Shown in pieces: positions 1-5,815 of a DNA stretch of 64,000 bases. Source of the DNA: Sinohyriopsis cumingii (taxonomy: Eukaryota; Mollusca; Bivalvia; Unionida; Unionidae); contig CM068839.1 of assembly GCA_028554795.2 (NCBI GenBank), positions 12,303,220 to 12,367,219 of the forward strand. The letters are read 5' to 3'. The notes under the pieces are model-generated. The model saw only the letters and a program-made list of their open reading frames with translations, was not told the origin of the DNA and ran no database searches. Both the position numbers and the translations under genes were made by a program. The stretch's first letter is position 1; each line of letters starts with the position of its first letter.

Positions 1-855
1 GTGAAGAAAATCGAAGTCAGTCGCGATGGCAAAACCTTGTGTACCCGACCTTTCGAACCTGACTTTAAAGAGAAGAATTACTTGAGATCGTACTTGTCCC
101 TGTACGAAGCCACCGGACAGTTAGGAACCAACACCAGTCACGGTATTACGTACGAGGATTACGCAGGAGGCTATGCTTTGTGGGCTTTCGATTTCACTCC
201 AGACCAAGGCAGCGACGAGGGACATTTCCACCCTATAAAATCAGGCCAGATTCGTGTGGAACTTCAGTTTGCAGAACCACTGAAAGAGACAGTGAACGTC
301 ATCCTGTATGCAGAATTCGATAATACCATAGAGAAGTTTGAGAGAAGTCATCCTAGATTACTAGAAACCATGGAAGACTGTTGTCCCTCTTTACCTAGTG
401 GAGAAACTTTGGAGATGGAATGTGAGGAGACCGTGGAAAAAGAAGAAGTGATCATGATGAAGTCGAGATGGCCAGAACAAGAAGCCCATTTAGTCTCCTG
501 TTTTGCCAAACACTTGGTCGACAAAATGACGGAATTGATCAAGAAAAATTGCTATGGATGTCAAAACGATCATCCCAGTCAAATTCAACACGATAAATGC
601 CTGATGTTGAGCCAAGAAGAAAAATTGGACGAGTATCTGGACGAAGCTTGGAGTCTCATCTCAAACAAAGACGTGTTGCACCAGTGGTATAAAGACTTGC
701 GTGAACATTCTTGTCCACCATTAACTACTCAAGAGATCCATCGTATCGAAGCTCTCCTGAATCAGAGTGAGGAAACAGAACGAATAACCGTTTATTCGTC
801 AGACATTTTCAAGCAAAAAGTCAGGATCGAATTGACGACTTATTATTACCTGTGA
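1..855 (+). CDS. Polinton-like capsid-type C-terminal segment fused to a Cys/His-cluster protein (5' partial)
   Basis: The reading frame is open from the first base of the window, so the true start is probably upstream; the GTG at position 1 is not taken as a start. Residues about 1-112 resemble the C-terminal part of the F54H12.2-like family found in Polinton/Maverick elements, which I take to be the end of a double-jelly-roll capsid protein (recognition from memory, not a search). Residues about 124-284 look like a different protein: an acidic stretch, then a Cys/His cluster C184-x2-C187-x3-H191-x5-H197-x2-C200 that could bind zinc, then a helical acidic tail. An internal ATG at 370 (residue 124) could be the start of a separate second protein. 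The stop at 853-855 lies 19 nt before the protease ATG, so the two genes are packed as in a viral late unit. Confident that it is coding and element-borne; less sure of the capsid role. Confidence 0.72.
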   Translation: MKKIEVSRDGKTLCTRPFEPDFKEKNYLRSYLSLYEATGQLGTNTSHGITYEDYAGGYALWAFDFTPDQGSDEGHFHPIKSGQIRVELQFAEPLKETVNVILYAEFDNTIEKFERSHPRLLETMEDCCPSLPSGETLEMECEETVEKEEVIMMKSRWPEQEAHLVSCFAKHLVDKMTELIKKNCYGCQNDHPSQIQHDKCLMLSQEEKLDEYLDEAWSLISNKDVLHQWYKDLREHSCPPLTTQEIHRIEALLNQSEETERITVYSSDIFKQKVRIELTTYYYL

Positions 856-874
856 AGAAGAAAACCACAAAACA

Positions 875-1435
875 ATGGATACCTGGGAACTTTATTACCT
901 TTTGAACCACAGTTCGTATACGGCTTCTTGGAATCCTGTCGTCTGTGCTAAAGATGAACTCCCTCATCGCAAACCTCAAGACCATCAAGCTTACGTAATC
1001 AACACGGACGACAGTCATCTCCCAGGAACCCACTGGGTAGCCGTTTACTTTCCTCAAGAAGGATGTGTGGAATATTTCGATTCGTACGGATTGCCCCCTT
1101 TGGAAGACGATATCATTGACTTTATGAGAAGAAATGCTCAAACCACCCGATTCAATAATGTGAAATTACAAGGCACAGATTCCTTGGTGTGTGGACAATA
1201 TTGTGTGTATTTTCTGCATCATCGCAGCCTGGGCTATTCCTTAGAACATTTAGTGACTCATTTCGATCCTCGTTCTTCTGCTAGAAATGATGTGAAAGTA
1301 GACCGATGGTTTTGTGACCATTATGCTTATCTTTTGTCTCAAGCTAGGACACGTAGTGTCCATCAATGGCCTAATGATTTCCAACAGTGGAAATCACAAT
1401 TTCATTCACAACGTTGTCAGCCCTGTTTAAAGTAG
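875..1435 (+). CDS. Adenain-type (C5 family) cysteine protease of a Polinton/adintovirus-like element
   Basis: This 186-residue protein has the full catalytic layout of adenovirus-type maturation proteases: His53 in GTHWVAVYF, Asp69 in EYFDSYG, Gln99 as the oxyanion residue, and nucleophile Cys106 in VCGQYC. Gln and Cys are seven residues apart, as in adenain, and the length is close to the family's usual ~200. Such proteases cleave capsid and core precursors during virion maturation and are a hallmark gene of Polintons, adintoviruses and virophages. The start ATG at 875 is the first in frame. No stop or frameshift breaks the gene, so it is either young or kept intact. The C-terminus (residues ~155-186) is Gln/Trp/Cys-rich and not obviously part of the catalytic fold. 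It lies just downstream of the capsid-like ORF and may share its transcript; an AATAAA follows at 1549. Confidence 0.92.
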   Translation: MDTWELYYLLNHSSYTASWNPVVCAKDELPHRKPQDHQAYVINTDDSHLPGTHWVAVYFPQEGCVEYFDSYGLPPLEDDIIDFMRRNAQTTRFNNVKLQGTDSLVCGQYCVYFLHHRSLGYSLEHLVTHFDPRSSARNDVKVDRWFCDHYAYLLSQARTRSVHQWPNDFQQWKSQFHSQRCQPCLK

Positions 1436-1684
1436 TTAGTATTTGAAAAAAAAATATTTGTGATTAGAAAAAGATTGTTTGATGTTATAGTGTTGGATTA
1501 TTGTTAAAAATGTTAGAAATGTTGTTGTTTAGTGTTAAGTGATTTTTGAATAAAAAATGTTGTGTTTAGAAAAAAATGCCTTTGTCTTTTGTTTAGCTAT
1601 AAGAATGTTGGATTGATGCTCTTTCATTTCTTACTATCCCTCTCATGACACTCACTAAACGTTGCGGCTCGAAAACCGTGTGGA
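1436..1684. other. AT-rich spacer between protease gene and cassette A
   Basis: Spacer rich in T/G/A with no ORF. It carries one polyadenylation-type hexamer (1549-1554) and no histone-type hairpin, unlike the 3' ends of the three cassettes that follow. Confidence 0.6.
1549..1554 (+). terminator. Candidate polyadenylation signal AATAAA of the capsid/protease unit
   Basis: Canonical AATAAA 114 nt after the protease stop, in a T/G-rich context. It suggests that the structural genes end by ordinary cleavage/polyadenylation, in contrast to the hairpin ends of cassettes A-C. Confidence 0.45.
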
Positions 1685-1720
1685 GGATGTTTTCCTTCAC
1701 GTCCGCGCTTTGACTTTAAG
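1685..1720 (+). promoter_or_regulatory. Cassette A promoter box
   Basis: GGATGTTTTCC, then TTCACGTCCGCGCTTT and GACTTTAAG. The same ~35-bp block occurs before ORFs B and C with at most a few changes. In A the TATA-like heptamer is altered to CTTTAAG. The block ends 56 nt before the ATG at 1776, nearly the same spacing as in B and C, so I infer a core promoter. Confidence 0.72.
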
Positions 1721-1775
1721 AACAGGGGGTTGTTCCCAGTCTAACCATCCATTGTCGACTCATCCTCCTAAGAAG

Positions 1776-2135
1776 ATGTGCTCGAAACTAGCTAAGCTCA
1801 ACGAAGCCTACGTGAATTTGCATAGGGTCAGACACAGTCTGATACCAAAGCCAGAAGAAATAGAGAATGTGAGAATGCTAAAAATCACTGAAGACCTAAT
1901 AGAAGAGCTCTTCAGAGAAGAAGTGAACAGGGAAAAAGAAGAATGGACAGAGAAGTACAGACTTCAGAGACAGCAGCAACAGCAGCAACAGCAGCAACAA
2001 CAGCAACAACAGCAGCAACCTGAACCTGACAGAGGCTTTGTCGATTGCCGTATCGACACCAAAGAGTTCTTCTTCTCTTTCCGAAGAAGCAGACCTATTG
2101 CCAGAAAGTCTATCCTCAGAGGACATCACAACTAA
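1776..2135 (+). CDS. Cassette A small charged helical protein with polyglutamine
   Basis: A 119-residue protein with no function I recognise. The start at 1776 (AAGAAGATG) was chosen because it lies 56 nt from the promoter box, matching cassettes B and C; an in-frame ATG-less extension to 1662 would run through the promoter. Residues 4-15 (KLAKLNEAYVNL) and the following Arg-rich segment resemble the same region of ORFs B and C. Residues ~40-65 form a charged helix, then a 16-residue Gln run (66-81, mixed CAG/CAA codons), then a basic Arg/Ser C-terminus. No signal peptide or membrane segment is visible. The basic tail could be a nuclear localisation or nucleic-acid-binding segment (inference). 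The hairpin 3' signal follows 29 nt after the stop. Confidence 0.7.
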   Translation: MCSKLAKLNEAYVNLHRVRHSLIPKPEEIENVRMLKITEDLIEELFREEVNREKEEWTEKYRLQRQQQQQQQQQQQQQQQQPEPDRGFVDCRIDTKEFFFSFRRSRPIARKSILRGHHN

Positions 2136-2139
2136 AAAA

Positions 2140-2345
2140 GAATGCCATAGCAAACAAAAAAAACAGCCCTTTTCAGGGCTACCAATACTCTAGAAAAGAA
2201 ATAACGATTAATTTGCCAATGTGTAGGTAGAGTAGTGTGAAAATAAACACTAACTCTTTTAAAAAATGTGAGGGTATGTGTTGGTGTGTTGGTGTTTGTA
2301 AGAACTCAAGTAAGTTGGTGTGGATAGTAGATTAAAATGATGTTT
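2140..2345 (+). repeat. Cassette A 3' flank, near-copy of 2955-3175
   Basis: About 200 bp beginning with the hairpin and continuing through GTAGGTAGAGTAGTGTG, AAACACTAACTCTTTT, a GT-rich stretch and ATAGTAGATTA is repeated almost unchanged after ORF B at 2955-3175. The two ORFs preceding these flanks are barely alignable. Confidence 0.8.
2165..2204 (+). terminator. Histone-type 3' stem-loop and purine box, cassette A
   Basis: Perfect 6-bp stem with 4-nt loop, AGCCCTTTTCAGGGCT (2165-2180), followed by ACCAATACTC and a purine-rich AGAAAAGAAA. The layout fits metazoan histone mRNA 3' ends: stem-loop bound by SLBP, cleavage a few nt after an ACCA-like flank, and a U7-pairing downstream element. 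The outer stem pair is A-T rather than the usual G-C; the second G-C pair and the loop U's expected for SLBP are kept. Confidence 0.72.
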
Positions 2346-2470
2346 TTTGGTGTTTGAGGTGTATATTTGGAGTTAGATTGAATTGAGTTGAGTATGTGGA
2401 TAGTCTATTGAAGTAATTTATAAAAAAATTTAAAATAGTGATGGGTAGCATAAAAAGTGAGTGAGTGTTT

Positions 2471-2575
2471 CTTTTAGGTCCGCGCGTTGTTGTTTTTTTT
2501 GGTCATGATCTAGGTAAGATGAATTTTATGTTATTAGGGGGATGTTTTCCATCACGTCCGCGCTTTCACTATAAA
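2471..2575 (+). promoter_or_regulatory. Cassette B promoter, with a degenerate upstream half-copy
   Basis: The main box is at 2540-2575: GGATGTTTTCC, ATCACGTCCGCGCTTT, then a good TATA box CTATAAA (2569-2575), 58 nt before the ATG. Upstream, GTCCGCGCG (2478-2486) and GGTCATGATC (2501-2510) repeat the layout seen before cassette C, as a partly eroded second copy of the box. Confidence 0.75.
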
Positions 2576-2632
2576 TTGAAACTCGCTGGGCAGTCTAGCT
2601 ACCCTTGTTGATTGATCAACACAGCCAGAAGA

Positions 2633-2941
2633 ATGACTAGCAGAATAGTGAAACTGTTAGAACTCCAGATGCACCTGGAATATGCCAGGCGCATAGTAAA
2701 CGAACTATCAGCGGAGGCTATAGTAGAAGAAGCAAGAGTAAAGAAGGAAGAGGAGGAGAGAAGAGAGAGGGAAGAAGAGGAAAAGAAAAGAGAAGAGAGG
2801 ATGTCGTTAAATATTCCCGAGACAGAGGATTGGGGTGTTGAAGCGAATCATCCTCCCTCTGCGCTCCCCAGAAGAAAGGTGAAAGAAGACTGGGGAAGAA
2901 GATGCGTGTGTGGCGCCAGGCCAGGACGGTGCAACCATTAG
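2633..2941 (+). CDS. Cassette B small charged coiled-coil protein
   Basis: A 102-residue protein of unknown function. The ATG at 2633 (AGAAGAATG) is chosen from the fixed promoter-to-start spacing. The N-terminus (IVKLLELQMHLEYARRIV) aligns with the K-L-x-E-A-x3-L-x2-x-R pattern of ORFs A and C. Residues ~38-62 are an almost uninterrupted Glu/Lys/Arg helix, predicted single helix or coiled coil. The C-terminal ~40 residues are different: Pro-containing, with a short Cys/His/Arg end (CVCGARPGRCNH) that might bind metal. No transmembrane segment. Its hairpin 3' signal starts 26 nt after the stop. I take it as a paralogue of A and C, with low certainty because charged helices align easily. Confidence 0.68.
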   Translation: MTSRIVKLLELQMHLEYARRIVNELSAEAIVEEARVKKEEEERREREEEEKKREERMSLNIPETEDWGVEANHPPSALPRRKVKEDWGRRCVCGARPGRCNH

Positions 2942-2954
2942 ATAGGTGCATCAG

Positions 2955-3175
2955 GAGTTCAAAAAACAGCCCTTTTCAGGGCTACCCAATACTCTAGAAA
3001 AGAAATAACGATCAATTTGCCAATGCGTGTAGGTAGAGTAGTGTGTATATAAACACTAACTCTTTTTAAGATAGTGTGAGGGTATGCGTTTGTGTGTTTG
3101 TGTGTTTGTGTTTGTAAGAGCTCAGGTATGTTTGTGTGAATAGTAGATTATGGGTTTCTTAGCGTATCTGAAGAG
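2955..3175 (+). repeat. Cassette B 3' flank, near-copy of 2140-2345
   Basis: Second copy of the cassette 3' flank (hairpin, purine box, TAGGTAGAGTAGTGTG, AAACACTAACTC, GT-rich run, AATAGTAGATTA). It differs from the first copy by a few substitutions and short GT-run changes. Confidence 0.8.
2968..3005 (+). terminator. Histone-type 3' stem-loop and purine box, cassette B
   Basis: AGCCCTTTTCAGGGCT (2968-2983) followed by ACCCAATACTCT and AGAAAAGAAA. The ACCCA directly after the stem is the classic histone cleavage-site flank, and the purine box sits 13 nt downstream, where U7 snRNA would pair. Confidence 0.75.
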
Positions 3176-3214
3176 CATAGTTAGGGTTTTATTATATGAA
3201 ACGAGAAAAGTAGG

Positions 3215-3318
3215 GGATGTTTTCCTTCACGTCCGCGCGTTGCTTGGTCATGATCGAGGTAAGATCAATTTTATGTTTTCAGGGATGTTTTCCTTCACGT
3301 ACGCGCTTTCACTATAAA
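3215..3318 (+). promoter_or_regulatory. Cassette C doubled promoter box
   Basis: Copy 1 (3215-3240) has GGATGTTTTCC, TTCACGTCCGCGCG and no TATA box. Copy 2 (3283-3318) has GGATGTTTTCC, TTCACGTACGCGCTTT and CTATAAA (3312-3318), 53 nt before the ATG. GGTCATGATC lies between the copies, as it does before cassette B. Confidence 0.75.
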
Positions 3319-3370
3319 ACTAACAGTGTTGGTCATTGGAGCCCATTCTACGGAATAAGCGAACAAGAAG

Positions 3371-3967
3371 ATGCCAGCAGCTTCAGCTTTATACAACGAT
3401 CTTATGGGAAGTTGGTATTGGATGGTGGATGGATTGAGTGTAGTAGAAAGGGTTGAACAAGAATGGAGGTATGCAGTGACAAAAGACTTCGTCTCAAGAC
3501 AAGTAACCAGCCTCCACTTATCCGTAAATATTGTAAAAGAAATGATAGAGGATGAGGAGAAGAGAATCAGAGGTTTAATTAACCCACCGTATGTCAAAGT
3601 GGGTAAGTTAAAAGAAGCGATAGATCATGTGACGAGTGCAAGGTGCTTTCTAGAAGACATTGTAGAATGGACAGATTGGTGTTTCGCGAAGTGGGGGTTA
3701 GAAAAACTTAAGAAAGCTGAAGAACTAATGAGGAATGTGCTGACCGAAGAGGTCAAGAAGATCAAAGAAAAGTGGTCCAAGGAAAGAAAAGAAGAAGAAA
3801 AAAGAAAAAAAAGGGATGAATTCGAAAAACTGAACACAAACTGGATGAAAATCCAAGAGAAGTTCCGGGCCATGGGCCACCCGGACTGGTTGCCGGAAAA
3901 AGAAAAGAAAAAGAAGAAAGGAATGATGGACAAAATAAGAGGATGGTGGAAGAAGTTAAGAAGTTAA
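3371..3967 (+). CDS. Cassette C larger charged helical protein
   Basis: A 198-residue protein, not recognised. The start at 3371 (AAGAAGATG) fits the promoter spacing and leader ending of A and B. The N-terminal ~70 residues (Trp/Val-rich) have no counterpart in A or B. Residues ~77-100 (VGKLKEAIDHVTSARCFLED) match the pattern near the N-termini of A and B. A helix LKKAEELMRNVLTEEVKKIK leads into a Lys/Glu-rich coiled coil, and the last 30 residues are strongly basic and amphipathic, ending IRGWWKKLRS. It looks like the fuller member of the family, with A and B shortened or recombined. Possible roles (nuclear, membrane-perturbing or DNA-associated) cannot be separated from sequence alone. The hairpin lies 24 nt after the stop. 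Confidence 0.72.
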   Translation: MPAASALYNDLMGSWYWMVDGLSVVERVEQEWRYAVTKDFVSRQVTSLHLSVNIVKEMIEDEEKRIRGLINPPYVKVGKLKEAIDHVTSARCFLEDIVEWTDWCFAKWGLEKLKKAEELMRNVLTEEVKKIKEKWSKERKEEEKRKKRDEFEKLNTNWMKIQEKFRAMGHPDWLPEKEKKKKKGMMDKIRGWWKKLRS

Positions 3968-3991
3968 AAGAAGAAGAAGAAAAAACCCAAA

Positions 3992-4029
3992 GGCCCTTTT
4001 CAGGGCCAGCCATATTTCTCGAAAAGAGA
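3992..4029 (+). terminator. Histone-type 3' stem-loop and purine box, cassette C
   Basis: GGCCCTTTTCAGGGCC (3992-4007) preceded by CCCAAA, followed by AGCCA and GAAAAGAGA at 4021. This is an exact match to the usual metazoan histone stem-loop form, with upstream A-rich and downstream flanks also as expected. Compared with A and B, the outer pair changed from A-T to G-C on both sides, a compensatory change that supports an RNA structure. Confidence 0.8.
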
Positions 4030-4078
4030 TAGCCTTTCCATTGCCTACCCCTTTTTAAAAAAATTTAAAAAAAAAAAA

Positions 4079-4340
4079 TCCCATGTTCCATTCCCCTTGT
4101 CCCTAAACAAGCCCAAACTCTATTCCCCATGTTAAATTCCCCTTGTACGTAGAGTGACCCACGATTTATCGCCATGTTAAATTCCCCTTGTACGTAGAGT
4201 GACCCACGATTTATCGCCATGTTAATTCCCCTTGTACGTAATCTGACCCACGATTTTTCGCCATGTTAAATTTCCATTGTACGTAATCTAACCCAGGGGT
4301 GGTCTGTAATGCTAATTCCCATTGTACGTAAAGTGCCCCC
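4079..4340. repeat. 45-bp tandem repeat at possible element end
   Basis: About five to six copies of a 45-bp unit containing CATGTTAAATTCCCC, TTGTACGTAGAGTGACCC and ACGATTTATCG, degrading at both edges. It follows the last cassette directly and precedes a LINE fragment, so it may be a subterminal repeat of the Polinton-like element. No inverted terminal repeat can be tested because the other end lies outside the window. Confidence 0.75.
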
Positions 4341-4399
4341 CTTCACTACTTACCTTTAAAAAAATATTGAAGATATAAACTTTTATCCTGTATTAATAG

Positions 4400-5815
4400 C
4401 ATTGCATACTATTCTGATTTCGGTAACAAGAGTACCTTACCACAGTAATGAAACTACTCTACTAAAAGTAGTTAATGACATTCTCTCTGCTTTGGATAGC
4501 GGCAAGATTACAGTCCTCACCCTCCTTGATTTGTCTGCAGCATTTGACACAATAGACCATGCTATATTACTTCACCGTCTCCAGCATGTATTTGGCATTC
4601 ATGATTACAGCCTTACTGCGGTTCAATTCCTACTTAATCAACAGGATACTGATTATGTCTGCAAATGGAATACACTCTTGCCCAGCTAATCTATGTTGTG
4701 GGGTTCCATAAGGGTATGTAATTGGACCTGTTCTCTTCATTATGTACACTCAGTCGCTCTCAAATGTCATAGATCATCATCCAGTGTCTCACCAACTGTA
4801 CGCTGATGACACCCAAATATACAAATCTAGCCACCCAACTGAAGTTGATGTTACCATCCAAGGTCTAGAGAGGTGCATTTCTGATGTGAAATCATGGATG
4901 ACATGTAACAAGCTGCAGATGAATGATGATAAAACTGAGGCCATTCTCGTCACAGCACAAATACTCAGTTACATCCTTTACCTCAAACAATAAATATCAG
5001 TAACACCAACATTAAATTCACAGTCAGTACGAAACCTAGGTGTCACTCTGGACAGTACTCTCACGTTTCAACAACATGTCATGAACATATGCAAGGCTGC
5101 ATATCTTGAGCTGAGACGCATCAGCTCCATTCGCAAATATCTTTCAGTTGATGTCACTAAAACACTTGTATGTTCATTAGTACTTTCAAGACTGGACTAT
5201 TGTAACTCAATTCTGTCTGGTTCATCTCAATATCTACTTCAGAAACTTCAAAATGTTCAAAACAGAGCTGCTCGGATCATACTTAGAGTACTATGATCAG
5301 AGCACACCTCCCCGCTGCTCTGTACCCTACTCTGGCTATCCATTTGATCCAGAATCAAACACAAAATTTGTTCTCTGTGCTACGTTTCACTGACGGACTC
5401 CAGTCCAACATAACTATCCTACCTCACCCATGTGTACACACCAGCAAGATACTTACGCTTCTCTTTTGACAATCATATACTCATTATTCCACTACGAAAA
5501 TAAAGTCATATGGACAGCGTTCTTTTGCATAGCAGGGCCCAAGCAACGTGGAATGTATTGCCCACTGAACTTAGACACAAATACAGTGATCCCATTCAAG
5601 AGTGCTCTTAAAACTCACTTATTTCGACTGCAAAAACAAACTTAAAGACCTAATAATGTTCCCTACCTTAAATATATACAGCATGTTTTTATGTTTTCTA
5701 ATTTCATTGGTGTTTGTTTTCTGTAATAATATCATTATATCTGTTTTTTTTTATGGTATAGATGTTGTCTAATGTTGTAAAGCGCCGTATTTTTGAGCAA
5801 TAAAGTGATTTCAGC
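4400..5815 (+). pseudogene. Non-LTR retrotransposon reverse transcriptase, 5'-truncated and broken
   Basis: Conserved LINE RT blocks occur in order across several frames: LLDLSAAFDTIDHAILLHRL (palm motif A, 4525-4585), a GVP-stop-G remnant of the GVPQG block (stop at 4709-4711), LYADDTQIY with the catalytic YADD at 4799-4810, the LGVTLDSTLTF block, SRLDYCNSILSG and QNRAARII near 5195-5290, and the C-terminal FKSALKTHLF at 5593. Several frameshifts, stops and an internal deletion (about 4640-4690) show that it is dead. The 3' UTR ends near AATAAAGTGATTT at ~5800. The style is L2/CR1/Jockey-like; the clade cannot be fixed by eye. The 5' truncation near 4400 is typical of target-primed insertion. 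Confidence 0.9.

Follow-up and report, generated by a model that had tools for sequence, protein, structure and literature searches.

Histone-type 3′ ends are the textbook mark of one gene class, the replication-dependent histone genes, whose mRNAs follow a pathway under S-phase control. In PMC7026596 this pathway is described with SLBP on the stem-loop, the U7 small nuclear ribonucleoprotein (snRNP) on a downstream element, and CPSF73 cutting 4–5 nucleotides (nt) past the stem. Here we describe a 64,000-nt stretch of the genome of the freshwater mussel Sinohyriopsis cumingii (contig CM068839.1, forward strand; “the window”), whose left end holds part of a virus-like element with three accessory genes, A, B and C, that end in signals of this type. 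The element shares with replication-dependent histone genes the six-pair stem, the four-base TTTC-type loop and the ACCCA-like flank, together with an AAAAGA-type box about 14 nt further on and a short gap between stop codon and hairpin; its genes A–C also share the H2B, H1 and H4 promoter boxes of the host. It differs from them in that its accessory genes, five families (A–E) in all, sit in a dispersed virus-like element and encode proteins with no Pfam Histone match. In its core genes the element resembles Polintons/Mavericks and adintoviruses, with which it has in common a putative PolB end, an A32/FtsK-type ATPase, an rve integrase with chromodomain, a penton-like gene, a major capsid protein (MCP) gene and an adenain-type protease in one block. 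For these viruses no histone-type expression signals are described in the literature searched, apart from PMC12220804 (2025), which counts six histone 3′ untranslated region stem-loops among its Polinton-like viruses and virophages. That count concerns the same type of RNA element and the same broad virus class, and the section in which it appears gives no position, gene or interpretation; it is the only earlier mention for this virus class that a full-text literature search found, so that the initial annotation was nearly right in knowing of no description. The accessible portion of PMC11071296 mentions histone-like proteins and no stem-loop. The term Histone3 also occurs 13 times in PMC7786107, which deals with RNA elements of a coronavirus. 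What is new is the use of a known RNA-processing signal and promoter by a new class of user.

Histone-type 3′ ends of three cassette genes

The genes and their 3′ signals lie in the window as follows; Histone3 (RF00032) matches are given in brackets.

1776..2135, + strand: accessory gene A, 119 residues, no Pfam family over the cut-off
2165..2180, + strand: gene A hairpin AGCCCTTTTCAGGGCT, histone-type (2160-2204, 31.6 bits, E 3.8e-5)
2192..2201, + strand: gene A purine box AGAAAAGAAA, candidate U7-binding element, AAAAG 13 nt past the hairpin
2633..2941, + strand: accessory gene B, 102 residues, C-terminal motif CVCGARPGRC, no Pfam family over the cut-off
2968..2983, + strand: gene B hairpin AGCCCTTTTCAGGGCT, as in gene A (2963-3008, 31.0 bits, E 6.4e-5)
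2996..3005, + strand: gene B purine box, AAAAG 14 nt past the hairpin
3371..3967, + strand: accessory gene C, type C1, 198 residues, predicted all-helical, no known family
3992..4007, + strand: gene C hairpin GGCCCTTTTCAGGGCC, histone-type (3987-4032, 35.6 bits, E 1.2e-6)
4021..4029, + strand: gene C purine box GAAAAGAGA, AAAAG 14 nt past the hairpin

Direct re-reading of the sequence reproduced the arrangement of open reading frame (ORF), hairpin, flank and purine box that had been noted for the three genes, with its spacings of 24–29 and 11–13 nt. The hairpin begins 29 nt (A), 26 nt (B) and 24 nt (C) after the stop codons, which end at 2135, 2941 and 3967, and the purine box starts 11, 12 and 13 nt past it, respectively, with an ACCCA-like flank at all three. 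The exact string GCCCTTTTCAGGGC occurs three times in the 64 kb, always at these hairpins, and allowing up to three mismatches gives eight matches against 2.27 expected. When the whole window was scanned with all 4227 Rfam families at E values up to 1, Histone3 was matched solely at the three sites. A check against this covariance model, which the initial annotation had proposed, was positive at every site, although only gene C exceeds the family cut-off of 34 bits, A and B falling just below it. Each 61-nt stretch folds into precisely the hairpin stem (z −2.3 to −2.5). The Histone3 matches and the equal layout at the histone genes of the host, described below, bear out the reading of these ends as histone-mRNA-type, and it is confirmed that the genes of this virus-like cassette end with histone-type 3′ signals.

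Downstream of genes A and B (e.g., at 2221-2256) there is a second conserved block, approximately GTAGAGTAGTGTG..ATAAACACT..CTC, located 3′ of the purine box.

Comparison with the histone genes of the host

Most histone genes of the mussel are arranged in tandem, in units of about 8.3 kb, as judged from the 150 candidates scored of 662. The single unit examined (L079) contains H3, H4, H2B, H2A and H1, all five with a Histone3 match over the cut-off (35.0–39.4 bits). Their hairpins read GGCCCTTTT(T/C/A)AGGGCC, that of H1 being GGTCCTTTTCAGGACC, and the purine box is TAGAAAAGA in four genes and CGAAAAGG in H2A. AAAAG lies at 14–15 nt and the gap between stop and hairpin measures 27–38 nt, compared with 13–14 and 24–29 nt in the window genes, and an exact 17-nt string is shared by the H2B hairpin and the element. 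The comparison with the host's own histone 3′ ends, suggested at the outset, returned an equal layout; the outer pair of the stem is A-U in genes A and B of the element and G-C in the five host genes.

The likeness extends to the 5′ side of the genes, a point that the initial annotation had not raised. A repeated sequence that precedes each of A, B and C proved to be the histone promoter box of the host:

1686..1709, + strand: gene A promoter element, H2B/H1 type, 23 of 24 nt the same as the host H2B box
2468..2488, + strand: H4-type promoter element 5′ of gene B, 21 nt identical to the host H4 promoter (L079:1356-1376)
2541..2564, + strand: gene B promoter element, H2B type, 24 nt identical to the host H2B promoter (L079:2185-2208)
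2570-2575, + strand: TATAAA after the H2B-type element of gene B
3214..3238, + strand: gene C first promoter element, H2B/H1 type
3282..3307, + strand: gene C second promoter element, H2B/H1 type, followed by TATAAA at 3313-3318

The promoter box reads GTTTTCNNTCACGTCCGCGC. Over 26 nt, the H1 promoter and 2539-2564 differ by a single change. On the + strand of positions 1-4400, the only exact matches of at least 17 nt to the histone unit are the two promoter strings (24 and 21 nt) and the hairpin (17 nt), and in the remaining window the 12 longest matches listed are simple repeats. The string GTCCGCGC occurs four times in the 64 kb, each time in the A–C promoters, and is absent from L059, the 10 kb directly to the left of the window. 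When copies of the genes elsewhere in the genome were examined (see below), with the box defined as GTCCGCGC or GTACGCGC within 260 nt upstream, it was found at 12 of 15 copies of A, 17 of 17 of B, 6 of 6 of C1 and 13 of 13 of C2, the last two being the types of gene C, and at 0 of 3 of the protease gene PRO. Judged from these sequences, the A–C cassettes imitate histone genes on the 5′ and the 3′ side alike, and genes D and E carry the 3′ signals. No E2F site was seen by eye in the promoters. The divergent D/E promoter, with CCAAT-type boxes, TGACGTCA and a TATA box, resembles histone promoters by eye in five sequences each; a blastn comparison between the histone unit and one D/E locus (L023) returned 3′ ends and simple repeats only.

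Distribution of the signal in the genome

A Histone3 search of the genome (2.90 Gb, 1138 contigs) gave 589,472 first-look candidates, of which the best 75 were scored. All 75 passed the cut-off and are scattered across many contigs; since only the best candidates were scored, 75 is a lower bound. Sixty-seven of these loci were fetched, the host histone hairpins (35–39 bits) lying outside those examined, and every one encodes A–E genes of this element family, with no match to a host histone protein at E≤1e-3 in any of them. Their gene order at one element end is protease-A-B-C-terminal-type repeats, C occurring in the two types C1 and C2, and D and E are found elsewhere as a divergent pair that also adjoins terminal-type repeats. 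The protease, located directly 3′ of the MCP gene, is a core gene and served as a negative control:

875..1435, + strand: PRO, adenain-type protease, 186 residues
1549..1554, + strand: AATAAA, probable poly(A) signal of PRO

A hairpin was counted when at least 5 of its 6 pairs and the TTT loop were present, and only for copies whose protein match reaches the C terminus. It follows 12/15 copies of A, 23/24 of B, 10/10 of C1, 10/10 of C2, 35/35 of D and 45/46 of E, that is, 135 of 140 copies over the five accessory families. As the loci had been chosen through matches at C, D or E, genes A and B are the fairer test. After PRO the hairpin is found in none of 15 copies, 13 of which carry AATAAA within 220 nt instead. 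With the count restricted to ORFs with at least 75% coverage, 103 of 112 A–E genes have a hairpin no more than 110 nt from their own stop (A 8/11, B 14/16, C1 7/8, C2 5/5, D 42/42, E 27/30); the single hairpin-positive protease ORF (1 of 4) is probably a fused copy, L048, in which protease and C1 form one ORF of 332 residues with the hairpin still at its end. In 126 of 135 copies AAAAG follows the hairpin at 14 nt, and the intervening letters vary.

These counts bear on the possibility that the hairpins arose by chance in purine-rich 3′ regions. Such an origin would be in keeping with the A-richness of the 3′ regions and with two of the three window matches falling below the Rfam cut-off, but it is already refuted by the copy numbers and has a negligible probability in view of the E values of 1.2e-6 to 6.4e-5, the covariation described below and the match to the host.

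Conservation of the hairpin and purine box

Column diversity in the 16-nt hairpin is 0.012–0.046 between copies, against medians of 0.082–0.302 in 16-nt windows outside the element. Outside windows as conserved as the hairpin number 3/119 for A, 0/129 for C1, 0/128 for C2, 0/129 for D and 7/126 for E, and those as conserved as the purine box 5/137 for A, 13/141 for B, 0/147 for C1, 7/146 for C2 and 0/147 for D. Covariation was assessed in 24 hand-chosen sequences (5 from host histone genes and 19 from element copies; 21 of them distinct). No stem pair is lost in this set, and two pairs are changed on both sides. The outer pair, for which a compensatory change had been claimed in the initial annotation, is G-C in 12, A-U in 8 and G-U in 1 of the 21 distinct sequences, which upholds the claim, with few evolutionary events behind it. 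The ORFs themselves are under purifying selection in the protease and in A–E, the ratio of mean nonsynonymous (dN) to mean synonymous (dS) divergence being 0.24 for A (11 copies), 0.23 for B (16 copies), 0.20 for C1, 0.24 for C2, 0.11 for D, 0.44 for E (hence 0.11–0.44 over A–E) and 0.38 for the protease. The neighbours D and E are unlike in their divergence between copies (L011–L078), with median dS of 0.95 and 0.095, a contrast hinting at cassette exchange or at several D lineages.

The 3′ ends and promoters might be passive remnants that recombination brought in from a host histone gene, the transcripts being polyadenylated further downstream. The exact matches to the host H2B and H4 promoters and to the H2B hairpin fit such a capture, and an AATAAA at position 2242, downstream of gene A, fits the polyadenylation. 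Passive remnants would decay, yet the hairpin keeps its low diversity despite median dS values of 0.71 in B and 0.95 in D; the distance from hairpin to box is held while the spacer drifts, and a poly(A) hexamer lies within 150 nt 3′ of the hairpin in just 24 of 135 copies. Passive persistence is hence improbable, and capture as the origin of the signals is compatible with the best explanation, that of histone-gene mimicry developed in the next section.

The hairpin might also be a structural DNA or RNA element of the mobile element, acting in recombination, replication or transcription stop, and have nothing to do with the histone machinery. For C1, C2 and D the hairpin is better conserved than every outside window, and C and D lie close to terminal-type repeats, as would be expected of such an element. 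Against it, the loop, ACCCA-like flank, purine box, stop distance and promoter boxes jointly match the five histone genes of the host, and the hairpin follows the orientation of its gene even in divergent pairs and is missing after all 15 copies of PRO. We regard this explanation as very improbable, slightly more so than passive persistence.

A putative histone-type expression programme

From the cis signals, their conservation, their spacing, their match to the host and their absence from the core genes studied, which are observed, we infer cleavage, lack of poly(A), S-phase timing, translation and roles for the proteins. The accessory genes are probably mimics of histone genes, expressed in an S-phase-coupled manner and without poly(A) tails in a Polinton/adintovirus-like provirus: as the cis signals of A–E match the host histone programme, their mRNAs are expected to lack poly(A) and to be present in S phase. 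Host RNA polymerase II would transcribe A–E under the histone programme, SLBP would bind the hairpin, and the U7 snRNP would pair with the purine box, the pre-mRNA being cut about 5 nt past the stem. The resulting poly(A)-free mRNA would be translated with SLBP in S phase and degraded once replication stops. The proteins would then be present only in replicating cells, which offer the host nucleotides and replication factors that a DNA element requires in order to multiply. Such an element would presumably benefit from S-phase-limited proteins.

No histone-type signals are present in the core genes examined, namely the PolB end, ATPase, integrase, penton, capsid and protease, unlike A, B and C at one end and D and E at the other; in L059, which holds 10 kb of core genes, the pattern search gave no histone-type hairpin and Rfam no match at E≤1. 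A more far-reaching version of the proposal, which we hold with less confidence while still favouring it, is that the virus lineage placed at least five accessory families, at both genome ends, under the host histone programme at promoter and 3′ end, with messages that would come from histone locus bodies, poly(A)-free and in S phase only, and with the core genes left outside. If true, it would represent a separate class of viral gene regulation, with the histone mRNA pathway serving to read the host cell cycle. The presence of histone-type 3′ ends and matching promoter boxes on conserved genes of a virus-like element indicates that foreign genes can exploit this pathway, and would provide such an element with a simple way of sensing S phase. 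Rfam Histone3 matches in animal genomes may also mark proviruses, as all 67 loci examined, of 75 scored, lay in the element.

Several results weigh against an S-phase-coupled histone programme. The promoter box is found upstream of 0 of 48 copies of D and 0 of 46 of E. For gene B, 11 of 123 outside windows equal the hairpin in conservation, and 64 of 144 equal the purine box of gene E, whose conservation does not exceed background. The 24 copies with AATAAA or ATTAAA within 150 nt of the hairpin include gene A of the window. The Rfam model of U7 found no match, in a search that had no positive control and so does not show absence, and a U7-like pattern was not enriched (44 occurrences against 59 in a reversed control). 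No SLBP was found at E≤1e-3 among 14 candidates, again with no positive control; an intron-split domain could escape the search, so absence is not shown. Finally, the search for the hairpin in other elements, which the initial annotation had called for, was successful in many copies within this genome and gave no Histone3 match in six Polinton relatives outside it (L001, L006-L010), three of which have little sequence beyond the protease.

The signals may give histone-type 3′ ends and yet serve nuclear export or escape from a shut-off that targets poly(A), with no coupling to S phase, for which identical cis elements would serve and with which the missing GTCCGCGC box of D and E is consistent. 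The H2B/H4-type promoter boxes of A–C, on the other hand, point to the histone transcription programme as well as to 3′ processing. This is the least unlikely of the alternatives, although still a minority prospect, and since it has the 3′-end half in common with histone-gene mimicry coupled to S phase, the odds of the two overlap.

One candidate U7 locus, a tandem array with 2588-bp spacing and a U7-like core CTTTTAAAGAATTTGTCTAG (G000:C10:118969412-119022052), was dropped because it lacks both a clear 3′ stem and support from Rfam.

Relatives outside the genome and the encoded proteins

Relatives of the element were sought with its core proteins. A search of viral_contigs with the protease sequence found nothing, and an MCP profile search found no relatives; a protease profile recovered one locus (L001) and five contigs in bacterial metagenome-assembled genome (MAG) records (L006-L010). 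In L006, L007 and L008 Polinton genes stand within bacterial MAG records (Nomurabacteria; Escarpia laminata endosymbiont), and these contigs are probably eukaryote contamination. L006-L008 barely extend past the protease and its neighbours, and L001, L009 and L010 have about 2–4 kb beyond it, unannotated. The hairpin pattern gave four matches in viral_contigs (L002-L005), none of which scored as Histone3 at E≤1. Database homologues on short contigs were found for C1 (nine, 45–54% identity) and D (two, 78–79%), so these genes probably occur beyond this genome as well. The database protein P0122, homologous to D, lacks the usual stop and reads ...TQKPFSGPLTLLEN..., the sole hint of a hairpin outside the genome; the C1 frame of copy L018 reads TQRPFSGPP across its own hairpin, much as P0122 does.

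Pfam gave nothing over the cut-off for A, B, C1, D and E, the Histone family included. Among PHROGs, searched with A, B and C1, a match of A to phrog_332 (E 4.2e-5) was discounted since it overlaps a glutamine run. The structural model of C1 is helical, with a predicted local distance difference test (pLDDT) score of 82.9, and has no fold match at E≤1e-3 in the PDB or BFVD; the model of D (pLDDT 49) was unusable.

Identity and organization of the element

By its gene content the element is a Polinton/Maverick- or adintovirus-like provirus. Its core genes lie mostly in L059 and continue into the left edge of the window:

L059:649-1392: BIR-domain protein (inhibitor of apoptosis), Pfam E 1.7e-23
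L059:3201-3944: packaging ATPase, A32/FtsK-type, Pox_A32 E 7.1e-8, over the cut-off
L059:6160-7272: rve integrase with chromodomain, PF00665 E 2.7e-14, Chromo 1.1e-7
1..855, + strand: MCP gene, C-terminal part with an extra C-terminal extension, entering from the left edge of the window
4090..4340, strand not assigned: 45-nt tandem repeats, probably part of the terminal repeat of the element

The N-terminal part of the MCP corresponds to L059:9071-10000, and residues 1-124 of the piece at 1..855 can be aligned with the MCPs of L006, L007 and L008. A PolB C terminus of 204 residues at the edge of L059 was named by eye, and the penton-like and capsid genes of L059 were named by their position and their likeness to L006-L008, no Pfam match being over the cut-off. 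The Peptidase_C5 match of PRO is weak (E 0.0085, below the cut-off), and 375 of its homologues were found among 391 candidates.

In many other copies, repeats of the TTCCCCTTGT type that resemble those at 4090..4340 lie close to genes C and D. Judging from copy L037, where a PolB piece is located beyond E, D and E seem to mark the opposite end of the element. Many copies, among them L013, L050, L051 and L058, have an additional gene beside E, named F, which encodes CCHC zinc knuckles and was not seen to be followed by a histone-type hairpin. Several loci (L074, L078, L026) contain neighbouring or nested copies of the element. In the window, the right end of the element is adjoined at 4440-5650 by the remnant of a retrotransposon of the non-long-terminal-repeat type, recognized by eye from its reading frames.

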